Shown here piece by piece: positions 18,408-37,405 of a DNA stretch of 64,000 nt. The notes beneath the pieces were generated by a model that had not been told where the DNA came from, searched no databases, and saw only the letters and a list, made by a program, of their open reading frames with translations. The position numbers were made by a program, and so were the translations under genes. Positions within the stretch are counted from its first letter, which is position 1, and each line of letters starts with the position of its first letter. The stretch is from Candidatus Methanomethylophilaceae archaeon (GTDB taxonomy: Archaea > Thermoplasmatota > Thermoplasmata > Methanomassiliicoccales > Methanomethylophilaceae), in the NCBI GenBank assembly GCA_944321505.1, contig CALULN010000003.1:1-64000 (forward strand), written 5' to 3'.

Positions 18408-19894
18408 CAATCCTCCTCCAGTATGCTGACGCTGGCACCTCCGTGTCTGCTCTCCCTGGGCCTGACCTCCGCCAGCATGGGGGTCTGGATCCCGGCGCCG
18501 ACGATCAGCGCGGTGCCTATGGGGAGCCCCTGTATGTCCTGCTCCATGCCGTCGGTCAGTCCCTCCATGGACTGGGCGATGGCCTTCAGGTCGTTGGGGT
18601 TGGTGACCTTGAGGATGATCTGCGTCCCGCACTGGCTGAGGACGTTCTTGTCGATCTTCGCCGGACGCTGGCTGATCACCATCAGACCCAGTCCGAACTT
18701 CCTCCCCTCGGATGCTATGGTCCCCAGGGCCTTCCTGCAGGAGGTCGCCTCCGCCTGGGGGCAGTAGTTGTGCGCCTCCTCGATCACCATCATCATAGGG
18801 GGCACGCGGTTCAGCTTCCTCATCTCGAACAGCACGGTGCACCATCTGCGGACGATCATCTGCTGGATGTCCGGGCTCACGCCCTTGAGGTTGATTATGG
18901 TGGTCTTGCCCTTCTGCACAAGCTCGTCGATGTGGTTCCCCCTCTCGGCGAACAGGCCGATGGAGTCCAGGTACTCCAGCTCGCTGACCAGCACGGGGTT
19001 CCTGCCGTTGGTCTCCTCGTTGACCTCGTCGATGAGGTCCCTGACGGAGTACAGCCCCTTCTTCTCCCTGAGGGCGTCGATCGCCTTCTTCAGTGTCGGC
19101 AGATGGGTCTTGGTGTCCGTGGAGCTCAGCAGGTCCAGGATGTCCCTGGCGTCCAGGGTCTTGAACGTGAACTTCAGAGGCCTGACGTTGGGCGCGTCGA
19201 TCATGCCGAACTCCAGTATCCTGTCGGCGAACCCCCTGGGCTTGACGCCGAACCTGGGGTCTGTGGTGGAGCCCGGGTCCCGCATGGCGCCGTACTCCCC
19301 ATGGGGGTCGATGATCATGCAGGTGACGTCGTGCTTCATCAGCTCCTCGATGATGTCGCCGGAGATGTAGCTCTTGCCGCCGCCGGTCTTGGCCAGTATG
19401 CACACGTGGCGCTGGACCAGCTCGTTGATGTCCAGCATCAGCGGCATGTCGTATCCGCGCAGCAGGCCCACGTATGCGCAGGTGCGGGGGTTGTCCTTCA
19501 GACCCAGCACCTTCTTGATGAACTTGGCGTCCGCCAGCCTCACATCGGAGCCGGCCTTGAACGTGGTCCTGGGGACCTGCAGCAGACCCTTCTCGTCCCT
19601 GTACCCTATCACGTCGGCCTGGGCGGAGAGCTTCTCCTCTATCCGGGCGTCCGGGTCCATCTCCAGGCTCTTGTCCAGCGTCAGGTTGGTCTTGCGCACG
19701 ATGCTGCCCACCTGGCACAGCACCGGCCCCACGTCCGGGTGGTCCACCACGACGTAATCAGACCTCTCCACCTTCCTGGTGACGCCGAACCTGAAACCGT
19801 TCGTGCCCACTTCTCCGTAGATCATCCCGACAGGCGCATCGCCGTCTTCGGCGAAGGCATCCAAACTCGTCTCTGCAGCATCCGTCATCCGCAT
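18407..19894 (-). CDS. herA: HerA-type DNA helicase/translocase
   Basis: The protein has 495 aa. An N-terminal HAS-barrel domain (about 20-120) precedes a RecA-like motor with Walker A LAKTGGGKSY near residue 168. Walker B is MMVIEEAHNYCP near residue 360, with sensor region VISQRP further on. HerA works as a hexamer with the NurA nuclease in DNA end resection alongside Mre11-Rad50, but no nurA, mre11 or rad50 gene is in the window. The ATG at 19894 sits about 27 nt from a TATA box. A GTG at 19903 is the alternative start. Confidence 0.9.
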   Translation of the reverse strand: MRMTDAAETSLDAFAEDGDAPVGMIYGEVGTNGFRFGVTRKVERSDYVVVDHPDVGPVLCQVGSIVRKTNLTLDKSLEMDPDARIEEKLSAQADVIGYRDEKGLLQVPRTTFKAGSDVRLADAKFIKKVLGLKDNPRTCAYVGLLRGYDMPLMLDINELVQRHVCILAKTGGGKSYISGDIIEELMKHDVTCMIIDPHGEYGAMRDPGSTTDPRFGVKPRGFADRILEFGMIDAPNVRPLKFTFKTLDARDILDLLSSTDTKTHLPTLKKAIDALREKKGLYSVRDLIDEVNEETNGRNPVLVSELEYLDSIGLFAERGNHIDELVQKGKTTIINLKGVSPDIQQMIVRRWCTVLFEMRKLNRVPPMMMVIEEAHNYCPQAEATSCRKALGTIASEGRKFGLGLMVISQRPAKIDKNVLSQCGTQIILKVTNPNDLKAIAQSMEGLTDGMEQDIQGLPIGTALIVGAGIQTPMLAEVRPRESRHGGASVSILEED

Positions 19895-24179: not shown

Positions 24180-26507
24180 ATGTCCGCTGACAGGCTCATG
24201 AGGAGGAGGGACGCCCCCTACTCCCTCTACGATATCGACATCCTCTCGGCGGACGACGACGAGCTGAAGCAGCTGTCGTCGGAGATGGGCCTCAGCCTCT
24301 CCCTGGAGGAGATGAAGGCCATCGCCGAGTACTTCTCGAAGGAGGGCAGGGTCCCCACGGATGTGGAGCTCCAGTCCCTCGGCCAGGCATGGAGCGAGCA
24401 CTGCTGCTACAAGAGCTCCAAGAACATCCTGAAGCAGTTCGTCTTCGCATTGGACCACCCGGACATCCTGTCCAGGGGGGACGCGGGCGTGATGGCCTTC
24501 GACGACGACTACGGCTACGCCCTCCGCATCGAGAGCCACAACCATCCTTCCGCCATCGAGCCCTACGGAGGCGCCGCCACCGGCATCGGCGGCATCCTGA
24601 GGGATGTCATCTGCATGGGCGCCCAGCCCATCGGGCTGGTGGACCCCCTGTGCTTCGGGCCTCCGGACACCGAGGAGGAGATCCCGGCGGGGATCAAGCA
24701 CCCCCGCTACCTGATGAACGGCGTCGTGTCCGGCATCAGGGACTACGGCAACAGGATGGGCATCCCCACGGTGTCCGGCGGATTCTTCTTCGACGACCGC
24801 TACACCGGCAACTGCCTGGTGAACGTGGGCTGCCTGGGCATCGTGAAGAGGAAGGATCTCGCACTCAACTACGCCGGCGGGCCCGGGGAGGTCATGATCC
24901 TGATCGGCGGCCGCACCGGCCGCGACGGCATACACGGTGTCACCTTCGCATCCGCCGATCTGACGTCGACATCGGACGAGGACTCCAGAGGGGCTGTGCA
25001 GCTGGGGGACCCCATCACCAAGGAGCCCACCCTGCACGCCTGCCTGGAGGTCAACGAGAAGGGCCTCATAACGGGCATGAAGGACCTGGGAGGCGGAGGC
25101 CTCAGCTGCGTGGTGGGCGAGATGGCCCTGGACGCCGGCTGCGGAGCCGACGTTGACCTGGACAGGGTCCCCCTCAAGGAGGAGGGGCTGGCGCCCTGGG
25201 AGATATGGGTTTCCGAGTCGCAGGAGCGCATGATGGTCACCTGCAAGCCCGAGAACGTGGACGCCATCCTGGAGATATTCGACATGTGGGACGTACTCGC
25301 CACGCCGATCGCCAGGACCACCGACGTCCCCCGCACCAGGCTGTTCTGGAAAGGGGAGAAGATATTCGACATGGACCTGGAGTTCCTGACCGGCGGACCG
25401 GTCTACGACCGCCCCTACGTCCTCCCGGAGGTCTCCGGCAAGGCGGGGGAGGAGTTCCCAAGGCTTCCGTCGGACCGGGAGGTCATCCTCTCGCTGCTGT
25501 CCGACCCCAACGTGGCCTCCAAGGAGTGGGCCATCCGGCAGTACGACCACGAGGTGAGAGCGGGCACCGTCATCAAGCCCATGGTGGGCCGCATGAACAT
25601 GACGGGCCCCGGCGACGCCACCGTCCTGATGCCCGTGCCGGGCAGATGGAAGGGTCTTGCCGCCGCCGTGGGGTGCAACCCCTGGTTCTGCGCCGAGGAC
25701 CCCTACCGCGGCGGGAAAGCCGGGATAGACGAGGCCTGCAGGAACATCGCCGCCACCGGCGCCAGGCCCCACGCATTCACAGACTGCCTGAACTTCGGCA
25801 ACCCGGAGAAGCCCGAGAGGCTGGGCGAGTTCCGCGAGGCCGTCCGCGGCCTCGGGGACATCTGCATGGCCCTGGGCCTCCCGATACCCTCGGGCAACGT
25901 GAGCCTGTACAACGAGGCTCCCGGGGGCAAGTTCATCCTGCCCACCCCGATGATCCTGGGGACGGGGCTGATCGACGACGTCAGGAAGGCCGTGTCCGCC
26001 GATTTCAAGGAAGACGGGAACCTCATCTACATGATCGGCGAGACGAAGGACGAGATGGGGGCGTCCCTGCTGTTCCGCAGGTACGGAGGCAAGGGGGGAG
26101 AGGTCCCCGACTCCGACCCCGAGCAGCTGAAGGAGCGCATAGACCGTCTGCTGAAGGCCATGGACGCCGGATGCGTCCGCGCCTGCCACGACTGCTCCGA
26201 CGGCGGCATGGCGGTGGCGGTGGCCGAGATGTGCATCTCCGGCGGCATCGGCGCGGAGGTGTCCCTGGAGGCAATGGGCGCCATGGACGACCGCAGGAAG
26301 ATGTATTCGGAGAGCTGCTCACGCTGGATAGCGGAGGTCCCGATGCCCAGGTCAAAGGAGTTCGAGTCGTTCCTAGGCTCACAGGCGAGGCTCATCGGCA
26401 AGGTGGGCGGGGACAGCCTGCGCATAGCCGGAGAGGACATCCCGGTGGATGAGCTGAGGAGGGCCTGGAGCGATCCCATATGGGACATCATGGGGGGTAA
26501 GGCATGA
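24180..26507 (+). CDS. purL: FGAM synthase subunit PurL
   Basis: This 775-aa catalytic subunit converts FGAR, ATP and ammonia to FGAM in purine synthesis. QAWSEHC near residue 70 and the ATP-site motif RIESHNHPSAIEPYGGA near residue 117 are diagnostic. Two AIRS-type halves follow, the second with DCLNFGNPEKP and CHDCSDGGMAVA. Length is normal for the small (Gram-positive/archaeal) PurL form. It overlaps purQ by 4 nt. Confidence 0.95.
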   Translation: MSADRLMRRRDAPYSLYDIDILSADDDELKQLSSEMGLSLSLEEMKAIAEYFSKEGRVPTDVELQSLGQAWSEHCCYKSSKNILKQFVFALDHPDILSRGDAGVMAFDDDYGYALRIESHNHPSAIEPYGGAATGIGGILRDVICMGAQPIGLVDPLCFGPPDTEEEIPAGIKHPRYLMNGVVSGIRDYGNRMGIPTVSGGFFFDDRYTGNCLVNVGCLGIVKRKDLALNYAGGPGEVMILIGGRTGRDGIHGVTFASADLTSTSDEDSRGAVQLGDPITKEPTLHACLEVNEKGLITGMKDLGGGGLSCVVGEMALDAGCGADVDLDRVPLKEEGLAPWEIWVSESQERMMVTCKPENVDAILEIFDMWDVLATPIARTTDVPRTRLFWKGEKIFDMDLEFLTGGPVYDRPYVLPEVSGKAGEEFPRLPSDREVILSLLSDPNVASKEWAIRQYDHEVRAGTVIKPMVGRMNMTGPGDATVLMPVPGRWKGLAAAVGCNPWFCAEDPYRGGKAGIDEACRNIAATGARPHAFTDCLNFGNPEKPERLGEFREAVRGLGDICMALGLPIPSGNVSLYNEAPGGKFILPTPMILGTGLIDDVRKAVSADFKEDGNLIYMIGETKDEMGASLLFRRYGGKGGEVPDSDPEQLKERIDRLLKAMDAGCVRACHDCSDGGMAVAVAEMCISGGIGAEVSLEAMGAMDDRRKMYSESCSRWIAEVPMPRSKEFESFLGSQARLIGKVGGDSLRIAGEDIPVDELRRAWSDPIWDIMGGKA

Positions 26508-27316
26508 GAGCGGAAGACGTCAGGGTCTGTGTGCTCCGCATGGAGGGCACCAACTGCGAGGACGAGATGGCCCTCGCCTTCGAGATGGTGGGCGCCAAGG
26601 CGGAGAAGGTCCACATAAAGCAGCTGTCCGGCAGCGCTCCGGCGGCCATGAGGAGGGATCTGGAGGACTACGACATCCTCGCCTTCCCCGGAGGGTTCTC
26701 CGCCGGAGACTACATCCGCGCCGGCGCCATATTCGCCGCCAGGCTGAAGTCCCAGGTCGGGCCCCAGCTGAGGGCGTTCGTGGAGGCGGAGAAGCCTGTC
26801 CTGGGCATATGCAACGGGTTCCAGATCCTGGTGGAGCTGGGCCTGCTGCCGGCGATGGACGATGCTATGTCGCCGGTGCCCACCGCCGCGCTGTACAACA
26901 ACGACTCCGGCCGTTTCGAGTGCCGCCCCTCTCTGCTGAGGTGCGACAGCCGCGGGAAATGCGTGTTCGCCAGAGACATCCCCAACGGCAAGGTGCTGAC
27001 GATACCGTCCGCCCACGCGGAGGGCAAGCTCATGAGCATGGACCCGGACTTCGTGGCGGAGCTGGAGGACAACGACCAGATCGTGTTCAGGTACGTGGCC
27101 CCGGAGGGGGACGCCGTCTATCCGTGGAACCCCAACGGGTCCCCGTCGGACATAGCCGGCATATGCAACCCCGCGGGCAACGTCATGGGCATGATGCCCC
27201 ACCCCGAGAGGGTGCTCACCCGCTTCACCCATCCGGACTGGACCAGAGGGTACGATTCCGAGGAGGGCGACGGGCTGGCGGTGTTCAGATCGGTGATGGA
27301 TCATCTGATCGGATGA
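26504..27316 (+). CDS. purQ: FGAM synthase subunit PurQ (glutaminase)
   Basis: This 270-aa class I glutamine amidotransferase supplies ammonia to PurL. The nucleophile Cys103 sits in LGICNGFQIL. FPGGFSAGDY precedes it, and the His/Glu of the triad are in MMPHPERV near the C-terminus. The end of the gene overlaps a possible ATG (27313) of the first GT-C-like gene. Confidence 0.94.
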   Translation: MRAEDVRVCVLRMEGTNCEDEMALAFEMVGAKAEKVHIKQLSGSAPAAMRRDLEDYDILAFPGGFSAGDYIRAGAIFAARLKSQVGPQLRAFVEAEKPVLGICNGFQILVELGLLPAMDDAMSPVPTAALYNNDSGRFECRPSLLRCDSRGKCVFARDIPNGKVLTIPSAHAEGKLMSMDPDFVAELEDNDQIVFRYVAPEGDAVYPWNPNGSPSDIAGICNPAGNVMGMMPHPERVLTRFTHPDWTRGYDSEEGDGLAVFRSVMDHLIG

Positions 27317-27366: not shown

Positions 27367-28946
27367 ATGGACGGAACTGCTGTATCGGAAGCTGGACACG
27401 GGTGGACCCGCAGGATGCTGGCAGCGTTCGGAGGGCCCCGCGGCTTCCTGAACGTGATCCTGCTGGGTCTGGCGATCAGGTTCGTCCTTGCACCGCTGAC
27501 CTTCAACAATTTCGACGTCACGTACTGGGTCCGCATCGCCAACATGGCTGAGAGCGGGGTCGGGCTGTACGGGATCGAAGGGTACTACTACACCTCCCCC
27601 TGGGGTACTTCGTAACCTTCGCGGCCTTGGTGTCGACGATGCTGGGAATATCCCCGTTCGCCGTGTATGACCCAGATCTATCGTATCTGTACGGGCTGAA
27701 CAATCTGGCGGGGGACATCGTCCCGACCATCGGCTTCGTGATGGTCATCAAGGTCATGCTGATCCTGGTGGACTTTGCGGTGGCGCTCCTGATCCGTCAT
27801 GCTGTGGTCGGCTTCACCGGAAGCGGGGACAAGGCCGTCTTCGCCTCTGCGCTGTGGTTCCTGTGCCCGTTGGTGATCTTCGAATCGTCCGTTCACGGGA
27901 TGTTCGACTGCATAGCGGCTCTGTTCCTGGTGATCTCCGTCGTCCTCCTCATGAGGGGGAGATACGCGCTGTCGGGCCTGTCGATGCTCCTTGCGGCCAT
28001 GACCAAGTTCTTCCCGCTGTTCATGATACCCGTGATGCTGGCCTGGATCGTCAGGAGGGAGGGGCTGGACAGGAACGGCGCCGTGTCCGCCGTAAAGTAC
28101 ATCGTCGGTCTCGTCTGCGGGTTCATCCTTCTGGTGCTGCCGGATGCTCTGGCAGGCGATTTCGCCGACACTCTGTCATTCTTAACGACGAGGGCAGGAA
28201 CGCAGGTGTTGCGGTTCATCACACCCGTGAATGCCCTCATCCTTGCGGTTCTGATCGTGGCGGCGGCAGCAGCGGCATGGATCTGGTGCTCCCGCAACAG
28301 AGGCAGGGTCTCCCGGATCATATCCGAGGCATCTGCCCCGGGTGCTGAGCGCAGAGCCGTCAAGGTGCTTGCGACGCTCTGGGCCGTGGCTGCGGTGGCG
28401 GTTCTGACCCTCTCATTCCTCATGGGCACGTCAGCCTCTGCCTTCATGATGCTGGCCTTCCTTCTGAGCGCAGCCATAGAGCTGTACCTGGCCTATGTTC
28501 TGCTGTTCAAAGGCCATCTAGACAGCGAGAGGCTGGCATCCGTCCTCGTCGTCTCTTCCCTGGCGGTGTTCATATGGTCTCCGGCCCCTCAGTACCTGAT
28601 CTTCATGATCCCGTTCCTGGCCGTGTACGCTTCCGTGTACAAGAGGGGATTCGTGAGGCCGATAATGATGTTCGCCGTTGCGTATTCGGTCCTGACTCTG
28701 GCCTATGGCCATGTCGCATACCTCATCCCGATGGAGAGCATCGGACTCATCTCCGATTCGTTCCTGGAGTCGGCGACCGCGTTCCTATCCACGGAGCTTT
28801 TCGGGACGACCGTGTATGACATCATAAGCACCGTGGCGGATGTCGCCGCAGAGGTGACGCTGGTGTATCTGGTTTACTGCTGGTACAGGGAGTCCGGCGG
28901 ATATGGTGTGGTGGCGTTCGGAAGAGAAGATGTCATTAACGGCTAA
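27367..28946 (+). pseudogene. GT-C-like membrane protein, copy A, frameshifted
   Basis: This is the first of five tandem paralogues. The N-terminal part (27367 to about 27605) encodes a first membrane helix, then NFDVTYWVRIANMAESGVGLY and YYYTSPWG, and runs into TAA at 27613. Family sequence continues in the next frame from TAC at 27606 (YFVTF...) to 28946. The other copies read TGG-GGN-TAY at this point, whereas this one reads TGGGGTAC, one base short. The downstream part keeps ESSVHGMFDCIAALF and AMTKFFPLF and the rest of the polytopic protein (about 520 residues in total). Either the gene is broken, or it is rescued by frameshifting or by correcting a sequence error. An ATG at 27313 overlapping purQ is an alternative start. 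Confidence 0.8.
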
Positions 28947-28973
28947 CGGATTCACTAAAGCGGGGAAGATGTC

Positions 28974-30560
28974 ATGACCGAGGCCGTTGATTCGATGATG
29001 GAAAGGATAAGCGGAATCCGCTGTGTGCTGTCGCCACATCGTGCATTCCTGACGGTCGTGCTTATCGGCATCATAGTGCGCATCGCTATCGCACCCATCA
29101 TCAATCAGAACAACGACGTGATCTACTGGGTCCGCATAGCCAATATGGCGGACAGCGGCCTGGGCATGTATGACATCGAAGGGTACTATTACATGCCGTC
29201 GTGGGGCTATTTCGTGTCCTTCGTAAGCTTCGTTTGCCTGATGTTCGGCATAACGACATTCGCGGTGCCGCATGATGAGCTCACGGCTGTGTTCCAATAC
29301 GGCCTTCCGAGCGAAGTCCTCGTCCCCACGGCCGGGTTCGCGGTGGTGCTCAAGATCTTCCTCATCCTGGTGGATCTGGCGGTGGCGGTGCTGCTGTATC
29401 GCGTTCTTTCTGATTTCACCGGAGACAAACGCATCGCCGCCACGGCGTCGGCGATCTGGTTCCTGGCTCCCGTTCTGGTGCTGGAGACGGCAGGTCATGC
29501 GATGTTCGACAACATCTCGGCTCTGTTCGTGCTCATATCCATGGTGCTCGTCCACAAAAGGCGCTACTTCCTCTCCGGGGCTTCGATGTTCCTCGCTGTG
29601 ATGACCAAGTTCATGCCTCTGTTCCTGATCCCGGTCATGTTGGCGTGGATCCTCCGCAGAGAAGGCATCAGCGAGGGGGGTGGGAGAAGCGTCTCAAAAT
29701 TCGTCATCGGATGTGCATTGGTGTTCGTTCTGCTTGAGTTGCCGGAGATCGTCGCAGGTAACTTCTGGGCTTCCATGTACTTCATAACCACGAGGGCGGG
29801 AGATACGGTGGGCATGCTGACCGAAGCGCTCTCTCCGGCCGTGCTTGCGGTCATCGCGGTGTTGGCGGTCATCATTGCAGCCCTTGTCATCAGGTGGATG
29901 AAGCACAATCGTGGCAGGTTGATGGGGTTCGCGGCGAAGATGTCGGAGCCCGCATCCGCACGCAAGGTTGCGGAAGTCCTTCTGGCGCTGTGGGGGATCG
30001 CATCGCTGGCGATCATCGCGATATCATCTGCAGGCGGATCGGTCTCGCTGTCGACCTTCATGATTATCGTGTTCCTGCTGTCTGCGGTCGTGGAGCTGTA
30101 TCTGGCGTATCACGTCCTCTTCAGGATGGAGGACGATTCCGAGAGGCTGATGTCGATACTGATGCTGGCGTCCCTGGCCATGTTCATTTGGTCCCCGGCT
30201 CCGCAGTACATCCTGGTGGCGATCCCGATATTCGCGGCTTATGCCGCCGTGTACAGGCCCGGGCTTATCCGTCCCCTGGTATTCTTCACAGTCGCATACG
30301 TGTTGTTGACATTTGGATACGGCAACCTGGTCTACGTCTATACGCTGGCCGCGGATTTGGGCTGGATACCCCTGGATTCTCTGTATTCTGCGGCTGAGTT
30401 CTTGGCTACCCCGGTGTTCGGAACCTATCTGGACGATCTCCTTTGTACGATAACAGATGTGACTGCCGAGATATCTCTGATATATCTGGCATATCGCTGG
30501 TATGTGGAGTCAAAGAGTCCTCTTCCCGACGGCTTGCACGGGGTTCCTATCTCCGCCTAA
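28974..30560 (+). CDS. GT-C-like polytopic membrane protein, copy B
   Basis: This 528-aa protein has about 12 hydrophobic segments. After the first helix comes an external loop with the aspartate in QNNDVIYWVRIANM (about residue 45), then GMYDIEGYYYMPSWGY. Later shared blocks are ETAGHAMFDNISALF (about 178), KRRYFLSGASMFLAVMTKF (about 200) and LAWILRREG. A loop-1 acidic residue and a multi-helix plan are typical of GT-C glycosyltransferases (GT87/PIG-M-like), which take sugars from polyprenyl phosphates. Its closest relative here is copy A. A sampled line is about 55% G+C against about 63% in purL. Confidence 0.75.
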   Translation: MTEAVDSMMERISGIRCVLSPHRAFLTVVLIGIIVRIAIAPIINQNNDVIYWVRIANMADSGLGMYDIEGYYYMPSWGYFVSFVSFVCLMFGITTFAVPHDELTAVFQYGLPSEVLVPTAGFAVVLKIFLILVDLAVAVLLYRVLSDFTGDKRIAATASAIWFLAPVLVLETAGHAMFDNISALFVLISMVLVHKRRYFLSGASMFLAVMTKFMPLFLIPVMLAWILRREGISEGGGRSVSKFVIGCALVFVLLELPEIVAGNFWASMYFITTRAGDTVGMLTEALSPAVLAVIAVLAVIIAALVIRWMKHNRGRLMGFAAKMSEPASARKVAEVLLALWGIASLAIIAISSAGGSVSLSTFMIIVFLLSAVVELYLAYHVLFRMEDDSERLMSILMLASLAMFIWSPAPQYILVAIPIFAAYAAVYRPGLIRPLVFFTVAYVLLTFGYGNLVYVYTLAADLGWIPLDSLYSAAEFLATPVFGTYLDDLLCTITDVTAEISLIYLAYRWYVESKSPLPDGLHGVPISA

Positions 30561-30566
30561 ACCATT

Positions 30567-32198
30567 ATGACACGGGAGGCGCCTTCAAGTGGCATGGGAG
30601 ACGGCGTTGAGATGCTGCGGACTGAGGAGGGGTCGACCGACGCGGTCATCTCCAAGATTCTGGTATTCGCCAGGAACCCAGTGGTGATCCTGATCGCTCT
30701 GGGACTGGGGATCCGCCTGGTCATAGCGCCGTTCCTGACTTTCGATCTTGATACCCATTACTGGGTGCAGGCCTTGGCGCTGGTGGACAACGACGAGGGC
30801 CTCTACGGCTCGCTGGGCTATTTCTACACTCCCGTATGGGGATATGTGATGTCCGTCATGGCGGGGATCGGCACGCTCCTGGGTGTCACCGACTATGCGA
30901 CCCTGATCCCGGACGTCATAGGCATGGTGACGGGTGAGTTCCCGGTGGCTCCGGAGATCACGTCCCCTGCGTTTAACGTGCTGATGAAGATTCCCATAAT
31001 CCTGGCGGACATCGCCTGCGCCCTGCTGATACGGCAGATCGTCATCGAGCTGATTGGTGACGGGAGGAAGGCGACGGTCGCCATGGCCCTGTGGCTGCTG
31101 TGCCCGTTGGCCATCGTGGAGAGCACCATGCACGTGATGTTCGACAGCATATCCGCGATGATGCTCCTGCTCGCGGTCCTGTTGGCTGTCCGCAGGCGCT
31201 ACTTCCTTGCCGGAGCATCGCTGTCGCTGGGCGTCCTGACCAAGTTCTTCCCCATGTTCTTCGTGTTCGTCCTGGCGGCTTATGTCCTCAGGAGAGAGGG
31301 CATGGGTTCCAACGGCCTTCGCCGTCTCCTCCATGCGGTGTGCGGAGCCGTCGCCGCCCTGGTGCTGCTGGAGATCCCGGCGGCCCTCAGCGGTCAGCTG
31401 TCCAGGTCGGTGTTCTTCATAGCTGAGAGGGTAGGTCTGTCGGAGGAGTTCCTGGATTCGGTGCTCACCGTGCGCAGTCTGGTCATTCTGCTGGCAGTCG
31501 TTGTTGTGGCGTATGCGGCATACCGCCTGCTTCGCTCCCGCACATCGTTCCGTCCGCTGGAGGCGTTCGTATCCATGGACCCCGCCGTAAGGGAGAGGAA
31601 GGTCCGCAGGATCCTGCTAGCAATTGCGGCCTTGGCGGCCGTGGCGGTGCTGGTGTACTCGGTCATGTCCGTGTCTCTGGCCGGCGGGACCATGGATGTG
31701 TTCACCGCCGTGGGCATGAAGCTGGTGACGATCCTCTCCATAATCTCGCTGCTGGGGGAAGTGTACGTGGCGTACCGTCTGCTGTTCTGCGGAACGTTCG
31801 ACGGCACGGCGGTCCTTTCGGCTCTCGCCGCATCGTCGGTGCTGATATTCCTCTGGCCTCCGGCGGCTTCCTATACGATCATAATGGTTCCGTTCCTGCT
31901 GATGTACTCTGTGGTGGTGGACCGCAGGTTCCTGCCGCTGTCCCTGCTGGTCATCGGACTGTTCGCTCTGGCGGAGCTCCCGTCCGCTCTGACCTCTCTG
32001 TCGTCAATCGCGGTGTACTGGGGCTTCCCCAGCGTCGGGACCGCAGTGGTCGGAGCCATCGGCTTCCTCACCGGCACCGTCGCCGGGTTCCCCGTTGGAG
32101 GCCTCATCATGGCGGTGCCTGATGTTCTCGCATATGTGCTCATGCTGTATCTGCTCCTCAGATGGTTCAGGCCGGGGCAGCTGGAGGCGGGAGCATGA
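30567..32198 (+). CDS. GT-C-like polytopic membrane protein, copy C
   Basis: This 543-aa protein lies 6 nt after copy B. It keeps the family blocks: APFLTFDLDTHYW (loop-1 Asp), GLYGSLGYFYTPVWGY, LLCPLAIVESTMHVMFDSISAM, RRRYFLAGASLSLGVLTKFFP and VLRREG. It is the most divergent of the five and has a longer soluble N-terminus (about 35 residues) before the first helix. Its stop overlaps the ATG of partner 1 (ATGA), so the membrane protein and the exported protein are made together. Confidence 0.75.
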   Translation: MTREAPSSGMGDGVEMLRTEEGSTDAVISKILVFARNPVVILIALGLGIRLVIAPFLTFDLDTHYWVQALALVDNDEGLYGSLGYFYTPVWGYVMSVMAGIGTLLGVTDYATLIPDVIGMVTGEFPVAPEITSPAFNVLMKIPIILADIACALLIRQIVIELIGDGRKATVAMALWLLCPLAIVESTMHVMFDSISAMMLLLAVLLAVRRRYFLAGASLSLGVLTKFFPMFFVFVLAAYVLRREGMGSNGLRRLLHAVCGAVAALVLLEIPAALSGQLSRSVFFIAERVGLSEEFLDSVLTVRSLVILLAVVVVAYAAYRLLRSRTSFRPLEAFVSMDPAVRERKVRRILLAIAALAAVAVLVYSVMSVSLAGGTMDVFTAVGMKLVTILSIISLLGEVYVAYRLLFCGTFDGTAVLSALAASSVLIFLWPPAASYTIIMVPFLLMYSVVVDRRFLPLSLLVIGLFALAELPSALTSLSSIAVYWGFPSVGTAVVGAIGFLTGTVAGFPVGGLIMAVPDVLAYVLMLYLLLRWFRPGQLEAGA

Positions 32199-33187
32199 AA
32201 GCGGACAAGGCGGTCGCCCTGCTGGCCGTTTTCTGCGCTGTCATGGTGGCCGGCGCTCTGTTGACGGACTGGGCAGGTCATATGGGACTCAACGCCGACG
32301 TCACCGAGAATGATGACGGCACCGTACAGGTGACCATGAACGGCACTTTCCCGGCCGGATACGGCTGGATGCTGTACACGGGCTCGGCGGGTTTCAACCA
32401 CGTATGCCTGTACCTTGATTACGAGTACGGTTCTCCCGTCGGATACTCTGATCAGGAGGACCTCATGGACTCCATGAAGAAATACCTGGATTCCAGAGGC
32501 GTATCCTGCAGCTATGTGGACGCCGGTGGATTGGCTGAGATCATGTCCGACACAGGCTCCGCATCATCCACTGCGGTGCTGATGGCATCCGGGGCCCTGC
32601 CGGACACCGTGTACGGAGAGGACATGTCTGTGTTCAAAACATGGCTGGAGGCCGGAGGCACCTTGTATTGGATGTACGGCTTCATCGGCGAGACCGTCTC
32701 GGTCCGCGGAGGAACCGCGGAAGGTGGTACGCCTCTGCTGGGTGAAGGGGCGCAGCTGGATCCAGATGAGGAGACGTTCGCATCCGACATCTCACCGTGG
32801 GCGGAGGCCCTCCGTTACCGCAACACCGATGCCACCTACGGGCTGAGCACGGACCTCCCTGGATTCACCGATCTCGGTCTCGTCACGGAATCCGGACACT
32901 CCTCCTGCGGCGCGGTGCCCTACGGCTCCGGAAGCATAGTCGTCGTTGGAGGGTCCTTGGATGGATCAGAGCTGGGGCAGACCGCTGTCGGACGCAATCT
33001 GGCTCTTGCGGATGTGATCGCTATGGGCCTGGCATCCGGCTCGGAGCTCGTCGACAGCGGGACCGGATCCAAGGGATACGGGAGCACGACCTTCACGATA
33101 TCCCGCGGAGGTGCGGAAGCGCTCTATCTGTGGTCAGGAGACTATAACTCCGAGTGGGGTCAGCGGTTCACCCTGCGTTCCGTCTGA
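32195..33187 (+). CDS. Signal-anchored extracytoplasmic protein, partner 1
   Basis: This 330-aa protein has an N-terminal hydrophobic segment (about residues 5-26) with a preceding Lys, read as a signal anchor or signal peptide. The rest is soluble. It is homologous to partner 2: both have a VTxxDDGT opening, an AGGTLYW or AGGTVHW strand-turn, and SLGL/DLGL followed by SSxxxVxYGSGxIxVxG. Both also share ADVIAxG and GxKGYG/GYW blocks. The Gly-Gly-Thr turn recalls class I amidotransferase-like folds of the DUF4350 kind, but no catalytic Cys is evident. I do not recognise a named family. Confidence 0.65.
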   Translation: MKADKAVALLAVFCAVMVAGALLTDWAGHMGLNADVTENDDGTVQVTMNGTFPAGYGWMLYTGSAGFNHVCLYLDYEYGSPVGYSDQEDLMDSMKKYLDSRGVSCSYVDAGGLAEIMSDTGSASSTAVLMASGALPDTVYGEDMSVFKTWLEAGGTLYWMYGFIGETVSVRGGTAEGGTPLLGEGAQLDPDEETFASDISPWAEALRYRNTDATYGLSTDLPGFTDLGLVTESGHSSCGAVPYGSGSIVVVGGSLDGSELGQTAVGRNLALADVIAMGLASGSELVDSGTGSKGYGSTTFTISRGGAEALYLWSGDYNSEWGQRFTLRSV

Positions 33188-33201
33188 CGTCTGCAGGTCA
33201 A

Positions 33202-33210
33202 GTTTTAAGG
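33202..33210 (+). promoter_or_regulatory. TATA box of copies D-E and partner 2
   Basis: GTTTTAAGG lies 24-32 nt before the ATG at 33234. The second half of the GT-C locus therefore probably has its own leaderless promoter. GGTTAAATCA at 34829-34838 may serve copy E in addition. Confidence 0.5.
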
Positions 33211-33233
33211 CTCCCCATCATGTCGGGTACGCG

Positions 33234-34847
33234 ATGGAGGGCTCTTGTTCGTCGGATGTGGCCCCGGGACCGTTCCGGGACAAGGTGAGCTGTTTCCTGC
33301 ACCGCCCCCTGGTCAAAGTCATCTTCATCGGACTGGTGATAAGGGCGGTTCTGGCGCCTCTGCTGACACCGAACTACGACATGACGTTCTGGATGCGCAT
33401 TATGAGCATGGTAGACGGCGGTCTGAGCCTCTATGTCGTAGACGGGTACTACTACACCCCGCCCTGGGGCTACGTCCTGTCCTTTCTGGCGCTCATAGGT
33501 TCGGTCTTCGGCATCACCTACGGTACGAGGGTGCCGGAGCTCTCCTTCGGAATGGGCGGGGACATCATGTCCTCCAGCGACGCTCCTATATTCTCGGATA
33601 TAGTCCCCACACTGGGGTTCGTCATCCTCATCAAGGCGTTCCTGGTGATCGTCGACCTGCTGGTGGCCGTCCTTCTGCACAGGTTCGTCAGTGAACGCTT
33701 CGGTGACGGGAAGGCCGTGGCTGTGGCGGCGGCATGGTTCCTATGCCCTCTGGTGATAGTCGAATCGTCCGTTCACGGCATGTTCGATTGCATCGCGGCT
33801 CTGTTCGCGGTCATCGGCATCGGATTGGTTTCAAAGAGGCGCTACGCGCTGGCCGGTGCGGCGGTCTCGCTGGCGATGCTCACCAAGCTCTTCGCGGTGT
33901 TCCTGGTGCCCCTCTTGATCGCCTGGGTGCTGAGCAGGGAAGGCATCAACAGGAAGGGCGCCGCATCCCTGGCGAAAGCCATTGTCGGATTCGCAGCCGC
34001 CTTCATTCTGGTGGAGCTCCCGTCGATCATGGCCGGGGACTTTTGGGAGACCGTGATGTTCCTGACATCGAGGGCATCCCTGACAGGCGGCATCCCGGCT
34101 TGGGCGGTCCTCATCGCGGCAGCCGTGCTCGCCGCGGCCATCGTTGCCGCATGGGTGTGGTGCACCCGGAACGCGGACAGGGTGCGTGCATCCCTGGACC
34201 GTCTGAGGACGCCGGAAGCCGAGCGCAGAGTCGTGAAGGCGCTGGGCATCATCGCAGTCATCGTGGCCGTCGCTGTGCTGGTGTTCGCCCTGGCGACTGT
34301 GGGATGGTCGGATGTCCCGGAAGCGGTGGCGTTCCTGGGGAGCAAGGCGCTGGTCATCGTGTACGTGGTGTGCGTGCTCTTCGAGGTGTACCTGGCATAC
34401 AGGTACCTGTTCCGCGGGGAGAGGACGCCCGAGCGCCTCGCCATGCTGTTCTTCCTCGGAGCTATGGCCGTCATCCTGTGGCCGCCTCTGCCGCAGTACC
34501 CGGTGTTCGTGATCCCGTTCGCGGCGGTGTACGTGATGGTGTTCATGCCGTCCCTGCGGAAGCCCCTGTTCCTCTTGGGTCTGGGATACGCGCTCTACGA
34601 CCTGTCATCCGGCGGGATCACCATGCTGTACGCATTATCCGAGGCGACGGGGCTGATCCCCATGGATGCCCTGGTCTCGATGTCCGAGGTGCTGTACAAC
34701 CGTATGGGCGATGTGCACATAGCCGGAACGATCACGGGAGTTTTCAAGGCGCTGGCATATCTGGCATTCCTGTGGCTGATGTACAGATGGTACAGGGAGG
34801 CATCGGGTTCCGGGGCGATTCCCGCAGTGGTTAAATCAGCCGATTGA
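33234..34847 (+). CDS. GT-C-like polytopic membrane protein, copy D
   Basis: This 537-aa paralogue has LAPLLTPNYDMTFWMRI (loop-1 Asp), SLYVVDGYYYTPPWGY, FLCPLVIVESSVHGMFDCIAALF and KRRYALAGAAVSLAMLTKLF. The ESSVHGMFDCIAALF block is identical to that of copy A, which points to recent duplication. The ATG at 33234 fits the TATA spacing, while the open frame further upstream lies in partner 1. It is followed by copy E after 13 nt. Confidence 0.77.
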   Translation: MEGSCSSDVAPGPFRDKVSCFLHRPLVKVIFIGLVIRAVLAPLLTPNYDMTFWMRIMSMVDGGLSLYVVDGYYYTPPWGYVLSFLALIGSVFGITYGTRVPELSFGMGGDIMSSSDAPIFSDIVPTLGFVILIKAFLVIVDLLVAVLLHRFVSERFGDGKAVAVAAAWFLCPLVIVESSVHGMFDCIAALFAVIGIGLVSKRRYALAGAAVSLAMLTKLFAVFLVPLLIAWVLSREGINRKGAASLAKAIVGFAAAFILVELPSIMAGDFWETVMFLTSRASLTGGIPAWAVLIAAAVLAAAIVAAWVWCTRNADRVRASLDRLRTPEAERRVVKALGIIAVIVAVAVLVFALATVGWSDVPEAVAFLGSKALVIVYVVCVLFEVYLAYRYLFRGERTPERLAMLFFLGAMAVILWPPLPQYPVFVIPFAAVYVMVFMPSLRKPLFLLGLGYALYDLSSGGITMLYALSEATGLIPMDALVSMSEVLYNRMGDVHIAGTITGVFKALAYLAFLWLMYRWYREASGSGAIPAVVKSAD

Positions 34848-34860
34848 GATTGGCGGGCAA

Positions 34861-36426
34861 GTGTTCCGTATGCTCACAGCATCCAGTCTGTCGTCCTTCC
34901 TGAAGTGTCCCATCGTGATGGTGATCCTCATCGGGCTGGTCATCAGGCTGGTCGTCGCTCCCCTGATAACGTTCAGCAATGATGTGGCGTTCTGGATGTT
35001 CATCGCCGGCACCGAAGAGGGGGGCACAGGGCTGTATGAGACCACTTCGTACCACTACACGCCTCCGTGGGGCTATGTGGTGGCGGTGGGCGCATCCGTA
35101 TGCAGCCTCCTCGGAATCACCGACCTGGGTACATTCGCGGATGAGCTGCTGCCGTACACCGGCGGGGAGTACGTGGTGCTGGACGCGGTCCCGAGCATCG
35201 CGTTCTCGTTCATGCTGAAGGTCCCGCTGATCGTCGTGGACCTGCTGGTCGCGCTGCTGATACACAGGTTCGTGTCCGGACGCACGGGGGATGAGCGCAA
35301 AGCCGTCGCTGCGTCCGCGATGTGGTTCCTGTCCCCGCTGGTGATAGTGGAGAGCAGTATGCACGCCATGTTCGACAACATCGCCGTCCTCGCCATAATC
35401 GTCTGCTTCCTGCTCCTGCTGGACCGCAGGTATGTGCTGGCAGGGGCGGCGTTCTCCCTGTCCGTCCTGGTCAAGTTCTTCCCGGTCTTCCTGACGTTCC
35501 TGCTGATCGCGTTGGTGCTGAAGAGGGAGGGGGTGGACAGTCACGGGGCCGCATGCGTGGGCAGAGCTTTGGCAGGCGCCATCGCGGCGTTCGTCCTCAT
35601 CGAGCTGCCTTCCCTCCTGGCAGGGGATTTCTGGCAGTCGCTGCATTTCATAATCTCCCGTCTGGGGTTCACTGCCGAGGAGGTCGGCGGCATCATCACC
35701 GTCCCGGTCGTCGCTGCGATTCTCTTGGTCGTCATAGCGGCCGTCGCGGCTGTATGGTATATGGAGAGGTCCCGCGGCACCCTCTCCCGCATCGTCTCCG
35801 AAGCCGGGACCGAAGGGTTCCACCGCCGCGTCAGGCGCGGGCTTGTGATGGTGTTCGCAGTGGCGATGATCGCTATCCTGGCGTACTCATTCGTATCCGT
35901 GGGCGGGAACACCGCCTACGAGGTGTTCAGCAGCTTCGGCATGAGGTTCGTCACCGTGATGTCGGTGCTGTCGCTGCTCATCGAGTTCTATCTGGCGTAC
36001 CGCCTGCTGTTCCTGGGCGACTCTTCGGAGAAGAGGGTTGCGACGGTGGTGATGCTGTCGGTGGCGGCCATCTTCCTGTGGCCGCCGGCTCCTCAGTACG
36101 TTCTGCTGATCGTGCCCTTCGTGGCGGTGTACGCGGCCATGCACATGCCCGCTCTGTCCAGGCCGCTGCTGATGTTCTCGGCGGCCTTCGCCGTCTATGA
36201 CATAATGATGTCCAACGCATCGGCGCTGTTCTCCCTGGCGGAGTACACCGGATGGATATCCATGGATTCGCTGATCCCGGTGGTGGAGTTCATGTGCTCC
36301 TACATAGGCCCGATACCGATGGTCGGTGTGGTCATGGCGGTCTTCGGCATCATATCATATATCTCGATGCTCTACATCCCGTACACGTGGTACAGGGCAC
36401 GGGAGGTGTTGCATGAAGAATCCTGA
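34861..36426 (+). CDS. GT-C-like polytopic membrane protein, copy E
   Basis: This 521-aa paralogue has VAPLITFSNDVAFWMF (loop-1 Asp), GLYETTSYHYTPPWGY, LSPLVIVESSMHAMFDNIAVL and DRRYVLAGAAFSLSVLVKFFP. The GTG at 34861 lies 23-32 nt after a TATA-like GGTTAAATCA. The in-frame ATG at 34870 is the other choice. It overlaps partner 2 by 14 nt. Confidence 0.76.
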   Translation: MFRMLTASSLSSFLKCPIVMVILIGLVIRLVVAPLITFSNDVAFWMFIAGTEEGGTGLYETTSYHYTPPWGYVVAVGASVCSLLGITDLGTFADELLPYTGGEYVVLDAVPSIAFSFMLKVPLIVVDLLVALLIHRFVSGRTGDERKAVAASAMWFLSPLVIVESSMHAMFDNIAVLAIIVCFLLLLDRRYVLAGAAFSLSVLVKFFPVFLTFLLIALVLKREGVDSHGAACVGRALAGAIAAFVLIELPSLLAGDFWQSLHFIISRLGFTAEEVGGIITVPVVAAILLVVIAAVAAVWYMERSRGTLSRIVSEAGTEGFHRRVRRGLVMVFAVAMIAILAYSFVSVGGNTAYEVFSSFGMRFVTVMSVLSLLIEFYLAYRLLFLGDSSEKRVATVVMLSVAAIFLWPPAPQYVLLIVPFVAVYAAMHMPALSRPLLMFSAAFAVYDIMMSNASALFSLAEYTGWISMDSLIPVVEFMCSYIGPIPMVGVVMAVFGIISYISMLYIPYTWYRAREVLHEES

Positions 36427-37405
36427 GATTGCGATATTGGCGGTCCTCGTCGCGGTCCTCGTCGCAGGCTGGGCGGTCATCCAGGTCGATATCTACGGCG
36501 GGACCTCCGTGAAGGTGACCGCCGGAGACGACGGAACAGATGTGCGCATCGACGGCCTGCTGCCCTCCGACTACCACTATTCGATTTACTCGGGAGCCGA
36601 CGTGTCCTCTGAGCTGTACTACTGGTACGACGAGTCCGTGGAGTGCAGGTCGACCCATCAGATGCAGAGCGATTTCTTCGATTCCATGGATGCCCTCCTA
36701 AAGGTCCGCAACCATGAGGCGGGGAAGCGTGCGGACACGCAGGCTCTCGTCGAGATGATGGAGCGCACCATCGCCGACGGCACGGTGTCCAAGGCCGCCG
36801 TGTACTTCTGCGGCGATGTGCTGCCCAAGGCCATCATGGAAGACGGACTCTTAGATCAATGGATCCGCGCAGGCGGGACCGTCCACTGGACCGGGAACGC
36901 CATGGGGGCGTACGTGACCTCCGAGGCAGGAATAGAGAACTGGAACCCTGCGGCGTTCTTCCCCGAGGGCACCGTTGCGGACGGGAGCGCGGACCTGGCG
37001 CACAACCACACCTACTGGTCCCAGAGGCTGATGCCCACCCTGTCCCAGTGCACCAACGGGCTGAACGTCACCGCACTCAATGAGAATGGGATCAGAGCGG
37101 TGTCCCTCGGATTGATCAACGACGACGGATTCTCCTCCTACGCGGTCTGCGACTATGGGAGCGGGAGGATCTACGTTCTCGGGATGTACACATCCGCGGT
37201 GTTCCCCGCATACTACCAGATGGTCTCTGCGGACGTGATCGCATCCGGGATAGACACAGACACCGTGGAGTCCTTCTCCGGGGACGGGAAGAAGGGGTAC
37301 TGGGGCACCGATGTGTCCATAGATTACTCCCCCTCCGCAGGCGACGTCCTCTATCTGAGGCTCGGGTCGCCCTTCGTCAACTGGGCCACGACGCACGCGT
37401 TCTAG
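36413..37405 (+). CDS. Signal-anchored extracytoplasmic protein, partner 2
   Basis: This 330-aa protein has the same length as partner 1 and is homologous to it along most of its length. An N-terminal hydrophobic helix (about residues 6-24) precedes a soluble domain. The blocks IRAGGTVHW, SLGLINDDGFSSY, YGSGRIYVLG and SADVIASGI align with partner 1. GGGAGGTG precedes the ATG, which lies inside copy E. It stops with TAG, and the last 4 nt overlap the convergent riboflavin kinase gene. Function is unknown. Its position makes it a probable partner of the GT-C-like proteins. Confidence 0.65.
   Translation: MKNPEIAILAVLVAVLVAGWAVIQVDIYGGTSVKVTAGDDGTDVRIDGLLPSDYHYSIYSGADVSSELYYWYDESVECRSTHQMQSDFFDSMDALLKVRNHEAGKRADTQALVEMMERTIADGTVSKAAVYFCGDVLPKAIMEDGLLDQWIRAGGTVHWTGNAMGAYVTSEAGIENWNPAAFFPEGTVADGSADLAHNHTYWSQRLMPTLSQCTNGLNVTALNENGIRAVSLGLINDDGFSSYAVCDYGSGRIYVLGMYTSAVFPAYYQMVSADVIASGIDTDTVESFSGDGKKGYWGTDVSIDYSPSAGDVLYLRLGSPFVNWATTHAF

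Follow-up and report, generated by a model that had tools for sequence, protein, structure and literature searches.

The first gene of a tandem array encoding predicted GT-C-fold glycosyltransferases was found to be interrupted by a frame change of a single base, and the explanation with slightly better than even odds, favored over a base-call or assembly error, is that the lesion is real and recent and lies in a copy that is redundant. The array lies in the window, meaning the whole 64,000-base stretch analyzed (G000:C3:1-64000), and its host is, by its sequence, a gut-type archaeon of the Methanomassiliicoccales/Methanomethylophilaceae type. The first gene, copy A, was truncated as the preliminary description had claimed: by direct reading and translation, the ATG frame gave 82 amino acids ending in ...GYYYTSPWGTS, followed by TAA at 27613 to 27615. 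At the junction the zero-frame codons were TCC CCC TGG GGT ACT, and family sequence resumed one base back, at 27606. The motif expected from the other copies, TGG GGN TAY, was present in all four as described: TGG GGC TAT in copies B and E, TGG GGA TAT in copy C, and TGG GGC TAC in copy D. Relative to these intact copies, copy A was net one base short. The resumed frame, which had been put at about 445 codons, contained 446 sense codons (27606 to 28943), beginning YFVTFAALV... The features of copy A are as follows.

27367 to 27615, + strand: copy A upstream piece, 82 codons to the TAA (translation; profile positions 4 to 58)
27602 to 27606, + strand: frame-change site, approximate limits of the missing base, within the W-G-Y motif (DNA, translations, and copy E model)
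27606 to 28946, + strand: copy A downstream piece, with stop TAA at 28944 to 28946 (translation and profile match)
27627 to 27641, + strand: candidate restart codons in the resumed frame, TTG 27627, GTG 27630, and ATG 27639

Both pieces matched a single family profile, the upstream piece at positions 4 to 58 and the downstream piece at positions 57 to 503, the latter with an E value of 2.8e-161. Over the 446-codon stretch, stop codons numbered 0 in the resumed frame and 29, 4, 7, 6, and 23 in the other five; the open frame therefore exceeds chance. Copies B to E were uninterrupted in translation, and the single genes at the same site in five genus relatives (G001 to G005) were also unbroken. 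By alignment of the loop, the upstream piece carried helix 1 and, in the loop, the motif NFDVTYW with its conserved aspartate. The preliminary description had placed W-G-Y at the end of the first external loop. The copy E model refined this to residues 70 to 72, at the start of predicted helix 2 (residues 68 to 83).

The remainder of the array (27367 to 37405) and its conserved left neighbor comprised the following genes.

26504 to 27316, + strand: purQ-like gene, conserved left neighbor (Pfam GATase_5, E 7e-70; CobB/CobQ-type glutamine amidotransferase domain)
28974 to 30560, + strand: copy B, intact, 528 amino acids, closest relative of copy A (translation; tree support 100/100)
30567 to 32198, + strand: copy C, intact, 543 amino acids (translation)
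32195 to 33187, + strand: partner gene 1 (frame open from ATG 32162; purine-rich leader before ATG 32195)
33234 to 34847, + strand: copy D, intact (likely start ATG 33234, in a frame that is already open from GTG 33111; translation and profile match)
34861 to 36426, + strand: copy E, intact, 521 amino acids (syntenic with the single G003 gene and 50% identical to it)
36413 to 37405, + strand: partner gene 2, 330 amino acids (51% identical to the G003 partner)

The order after the purQ-like gene, so named on our reading of the GATase_5 match and 71 to 85% identical in DNA in G001 to G005, was A, B, C, partner 1, D, E, partner 2. Five family genes and two partners were thus present, compared with one gene and one partner after purQ in each of the five genus relatives, the G001 partner running off the end of its contig. 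The G003 region was collinear with the window, its single gene and partner corresponding to copy E and partner 2 (50 to 51% identity). Partner gene 1 was 27 to 33% identical to the partners beside the single gene in the five relatives, and neither partner gene matched Pfam at an E value up to 1. A further, more distant family member was found elsewhere in the genomes of G001, G002, G004, and G005. In the tree, A grouped with B (100/100), A and B with D (100/98), and A, B, D, and E with the G003 gene (100/99), with copy C outside. Only 42 to 55% of codons were identical at shared residues among the six sequences compared; the copies are therefore old relative to any single-base lesion. With four intact paralogues in the array and one gene in each relative, copy A appeared redundant in kind. 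A query with the family alignment brought up seven named relatives, all of them metagenome-assembled genomes labeled as Methanomassiliicoccales, Candidatus Methanomethylophilaceae, Thermoplasmata, Methanomassiliicoccaceae, and Candidatus Methanomicula archaea.

With regard to the protein family, copy E models as a GT-C-fold glycosyltransferase. The AlphaFold model was built on a 10-row alignment (A2) and had a mean pLDDT of 78.7 and a pTM of 0.81, with the loop before W-G-Y (residues 55 to 66) poorly predicted at a pLDDT under 50. Plain Foldseek searching of the model gave no match at an E value of 0.001 or better, the best being ALG6 at 1.1e-3. In a second look with VIA-align, the model matched GT-C enzymes over nearly its whole length: ALG3 (9s6r) with the best Z score of 20.8 and an rmsd of 3.7 over 333, PIG-U (7w72) with Z 20.2, GPI mannosyltransferase I (9wno) with Z 19.9, ALG6 (6snh) with Z 19.0, and PimE (9dm5) with Z 16.0. 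The 50 matches listed were all, by title, GT-C-type enzymes or complexes that include one. Sequence identity to the five enzymes named was only 11 to 14% in matched rows, and unlike them the window family is archaeal and paired with a partner gene. An acidic residue in the first loop is common to both. In GT-C enzymes this residue serves as the catalytic base, and the loop aspartate of the present family is presumed to act likewise; in 29 N-terminal pieces it was Asp in at least 90% and Glu in one. Across the same pieces, R16, W32, Y46, and Y53 were invariant, and D28, P55, W57, G58, and Y59 were nearly so.

Weak similarity to Pfam GT87 (PF09594) was observed for copy B (16.7 bits) and copy E (18.9 bits), the curated cutoff of 25 bits being reached by no copy in the window; the pieces of copy A and copies C and D gave no GT87 match at an E value up to 1. 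Among the 10 rows of A2, GT87 matched five (best 8.7e-6), PIG-U two (1.3e-7), and Alg6_Alg8 two (3.8e-5). In NCBIfam, two of the 10 rows matched a single family, AZOBR_p60025 (cell surface glycopolymer formation; best E value 1e-6), and copy E matched none. In the literature searched, no title or abstract opening was found to deal with this gene. GT87 is placed in the GT-C clan (PMC7801869).

To explain the interruption, the preliminary description had offered a recent lesion, a rescued gene, or a wrong base call. Recency or error was supported by the state of the downstream piece, which retained 30 of the 31 residues that never vary among the other nine sequences, with Thr to Ser as its sole change there. 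No second lesion was detected in it, with 0 stops in 446 codons and an unbroken profile match, and its GC content by codon position was similar to that of the other copies. The relative rates of copies A and B were compared by counting residues unique to each against eight outgroups, giving A/B counts of 37/49, 44/67, 48/57, 45/50, 47/42, 47/40, 34/37, and 45/31. Copy A was slower with five outgroups and faster with three, and no significant rate excess was found on A: the largest was 45 versus 31 (χ2 = 2.58), and the largest on B was 67 versus 44 (χ2 = 4.77). The end branches in the tree were 0.61 for copy A and 0.78 for copy B. Under neutrality, 2.7% of substitutions in 446 codons would create a stop, and for assumed indel/substitution ratios of 0.05 to 0.15 the neutral divergence since the lesion was limited at 95% to 0.031 to 0.014 per site. 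The absence of a second lesion therefore limits neutral ageing to roughly 1 to 3% divergence. Since the downstream piece lacks signs of decay, the lesion is recent, or is not real, or copy A has not been neutral.

On the favored explanation, copy A, a member of an expanded GT-C-fold array, very recently lost one base in its W-G-Y motif. The analysis shows the frame change, the modeled fold of copy E, a copy number above that of the relatives, and no further decay, whereas we infer that the base is truly missing in the organism and that activity is gone. With translation halted after 82 codons, helix 1 and the aspartate of the loop, presumed to be the catalytic base, would be cut off from the remainder of the protein. 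Copy A would then most likely yield no active enzyme, and since four intact copies remain, its loss would probably be tolerated. In support of a real lesion, a second gene that was both frame-broken and cut short was found in the same genome (contig C1, about 55.2 kb), indicating that some real decay occurs. The damage to copy A is, on the other hand, a single base, as a base-call error would leave. With one other frame-broken gene in 268 kb of comparable sequence, real decay and error both appear rare, and the odds between them therefore come largely from priors.

The base may instead be missing only from the assembly, through a base-call, polishing, or strain-mixture error by the four-G tract, with copy A intact in the organism; this explanation carries a substantial probability, somewhat short of even. 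It is consistent with the single lesion and the lack of other decay in copy A and with the draft state of the genome (1,385,193 bases in 31 contigs, 95.1% complete). The break in copy A also adjoins a run of G, and the sole other broken gene recognized breaks beside a CTGGGG hexamer as well. The hexamer occurs 298 times in 332,133 bases when both strands are counted, so that by our arithmetic one lesion would lie so close by chance in about 1% of cases; the coincidence (window 27602 to 27605; L070 about 15195) was, however, spotted post hoc. A general indel problem, however, would show more than two broken genes in the 332,133 bases surveyed. This survey compared that part of the genome (24%) with 4,293 open reading frames from stretches of G003 (at least 70 codons, stop to stop), and 268,082 bases were covered. 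With filtering, 7 places were flagged, of which 2 were judged to be broken genes, namely, a helicase-like remnant and copy A, whose detection makes it a positive control. The five flags set aside were a region upstream of what we take to be proC; L068 5.2 to 5.9 kb, conserved in several frames; L070 4.8 to 4.9 kb, lying by its frames upstream of the likely start; L070 0.3 to 0.9 kb, with an intact 223-codon frame; and L070 14.5 to 14.8 kb, an open reading frame beside the helicase-like remnant. Two broken genes indicate that the genome is not riddled with indel errors, and they leave room for one isolated error.

Sensitivity was measured for the unfiltered survey and refers to that version: 28 of 40 test deletions were recovered (12/20 placed at 15% of gene length and 16/20 at 50%). 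Unfiltered flags numbered 3 in the window, 6 in the remainder of contig C3, and 8 in contig C1; most resembled shadows of other genes or upstream DNA and were rejected, those in the window, at L060 2.1 to 3.5 kb, and at L061 14.6 to 15.9 kb being judged by coordinates and neighbors only. Copy A was missed in this version because its G003 match was assigned to copy E. The remnant (L070 14724 to 16173; contig C1 near 54.7 to 56.2 kb), presumably helicase-like by its sequence, was frame-broken and then truncated, its G003 counterpart being a 934-codon open reading frame. Beyond it, a short-period repeat array that may be CRISPR-like in appearance extended to the contig end.

Two further possibilities were considered. 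Confusion of the array copies by the assembler was rejected on the basis of match lengths, the longest exact match elsewhere in the window being 12 bases for positions 27590 to 27620 and 19 bases over the whole of copy A; similarity to 27400 to 28000 was found in the genome only within the array (6 matches, self included). Gene conversion between copies A and D, suggested by 81 bases at 86% identity, found no support, as the best 30-codon stretch had 15 of 23 identical codons compared with 88 of 170 overall, a small excess. Neither the genome contigs nor the viral contigs searched held a same-species or close copy of the copy A downstream piece.

The remaining option of the preliminary description, rescue, found no support; all forms of rescue or split function together were judged improbable. 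Ribosomal or transcriptional slippage, programmed or adventitious, would restore a full-length copy A protein. The junction does contain a G tract, and the back-one-base direction is that of the archaeal fucosidase gene fucA1 (PMC8211752). The tract, however, has only four Gs, the zero-frame codons CCC TGG GGT provide no X-XXY-YYZ slippery heptamer, and the RNA was not unusually stable either around the junction (z = 0.94) or downstream, where 106 of 200 shuffles folded at least as well (z = 0.08, pseudoknots lying outside the test). The unbroken state of copies B to E and of the genus relatives' genes also argues against slippage, which we regard as very improbable. No conserved break position was found among homologues, the other breaks lying at profile positions of about 44 to 47 (G035) and about 38 to 40 and 164 (G096). 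Phase variation by slipped-strand mispairing was rejected since no long homopolymer or tandem repeat was present, only G4 preceded by C5 and T. Phase variation by slippage usually involves longer tracts.

Equally improbable is re-initiation, by which ribosomes would restart at TTG 27627, GTG 27630, or ATG 27639, so that copy A would be made as two polypeptides: an 82-residue peptide containing helix 1 and the catalytic loop, and a body of 435 to 439 residues with its own start, the two joining in the membrane as a split GT-C glycosyltransferase. The three in-frame starts, beginning 12 to 24 bases past the stop, are compatible with this, as is a family gene of G035, a genome in one contig, that is broken slightly earlier in the loop region, with an ATG in frame just a few bases past the stop. 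On the copy E model, however, the restarts would fall at about residues 79 to 83, near the end of predicted helix 2, which lowered the already small probability a little further; a protein begun there would be missing helix 1, the aspartate of the loop, and most of helix 2. Moreover, nothing beyond a short GGTG looks like a ribosome-binding site, the break hits a motif that is among the best conserved in the N-terminal region, and the G096 member, also broken there, is broken again further along, which points to decay.

Frame breaks were then counted across the family in 79 genomes at least 80% complete. The N-terminal profile (A3) gave 117 rows, with a match in 67 of the 79 genomes, amounting to 115 genes after two split pairs were joined. 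Three of the 115 were frame-broken in the N-terminal block: copy A, a G035 gene (G035:C1 about 1046400 to 1046650; L094), and a G096 gene (G096:C48 about 27950 to 28440; L091), which with its second break downstream looks decayed. Short N-terminal frames at contig ends were seen at G117:C10 (by position only), G114:C95, and G080:C7. A mid-protein control profile (A4) on the same 79 genomes gave 134 rows; after exclusion of 19 weak rows above an E value of 1e-6, the 115 kept represented 114 genes, of which 1, in G096, was frame-broken. The difference between 3/115 and 1/114 is too small to indicate a hotspot in the loop. Among the matches listed, 10 short-looking members were opened, comprising two frame breaks (G035 and G096), seven frames cut by contig ends, and one gene in G031 (G031:C3 about 18600 to 19740; L097) that stops about 80 profile positions short of the end, at a point within its contig. 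The five breaks viewed in sequence (copy A, G035, two in G096, and the helicase-like remnant) were each net one base short, and as the breaks that happened to surface they give no rate. Were copy A a split enzyme, the loop-region breaks in G035 and G096 would be further cases of it rather than decay.

Under the favored reading of a real lesion, the locus is a glycosyltransferase array that is turning over, with five copies compared with one in genus relatives and the probable recent loss of one. For annotation, the array counts as four intact copies and one interrupted or misread copy.

Compared with known systems, copy A resembles fucA1 of S. solfataricus (PMC8211752) in that an enzyme gene of an archaeon is divided by a frame change of one base backward, and differs from it in lacking a slippery heptamer and a stable downstream stem. 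It also resembles the isolated frameshifts of the GeneTack survey of genomes up to 2013 (PMC3711429): copy A likewise has one frame change, halves that match one family, and no counterpart of the break in the relatives examined. That survey expected a frameshift that is isolated and supported by BLASTp to be a sequencing error and not a genuine indel, which speaks against a real lesion here. From the frameshifts cataloged there copy A differs in nothing notable, apart from sitting in a tandem array beside four intact copies. Copy A is an ordinary case: either a redundant copy whose frame was recently shifted by one base, or a slip in sequencing.
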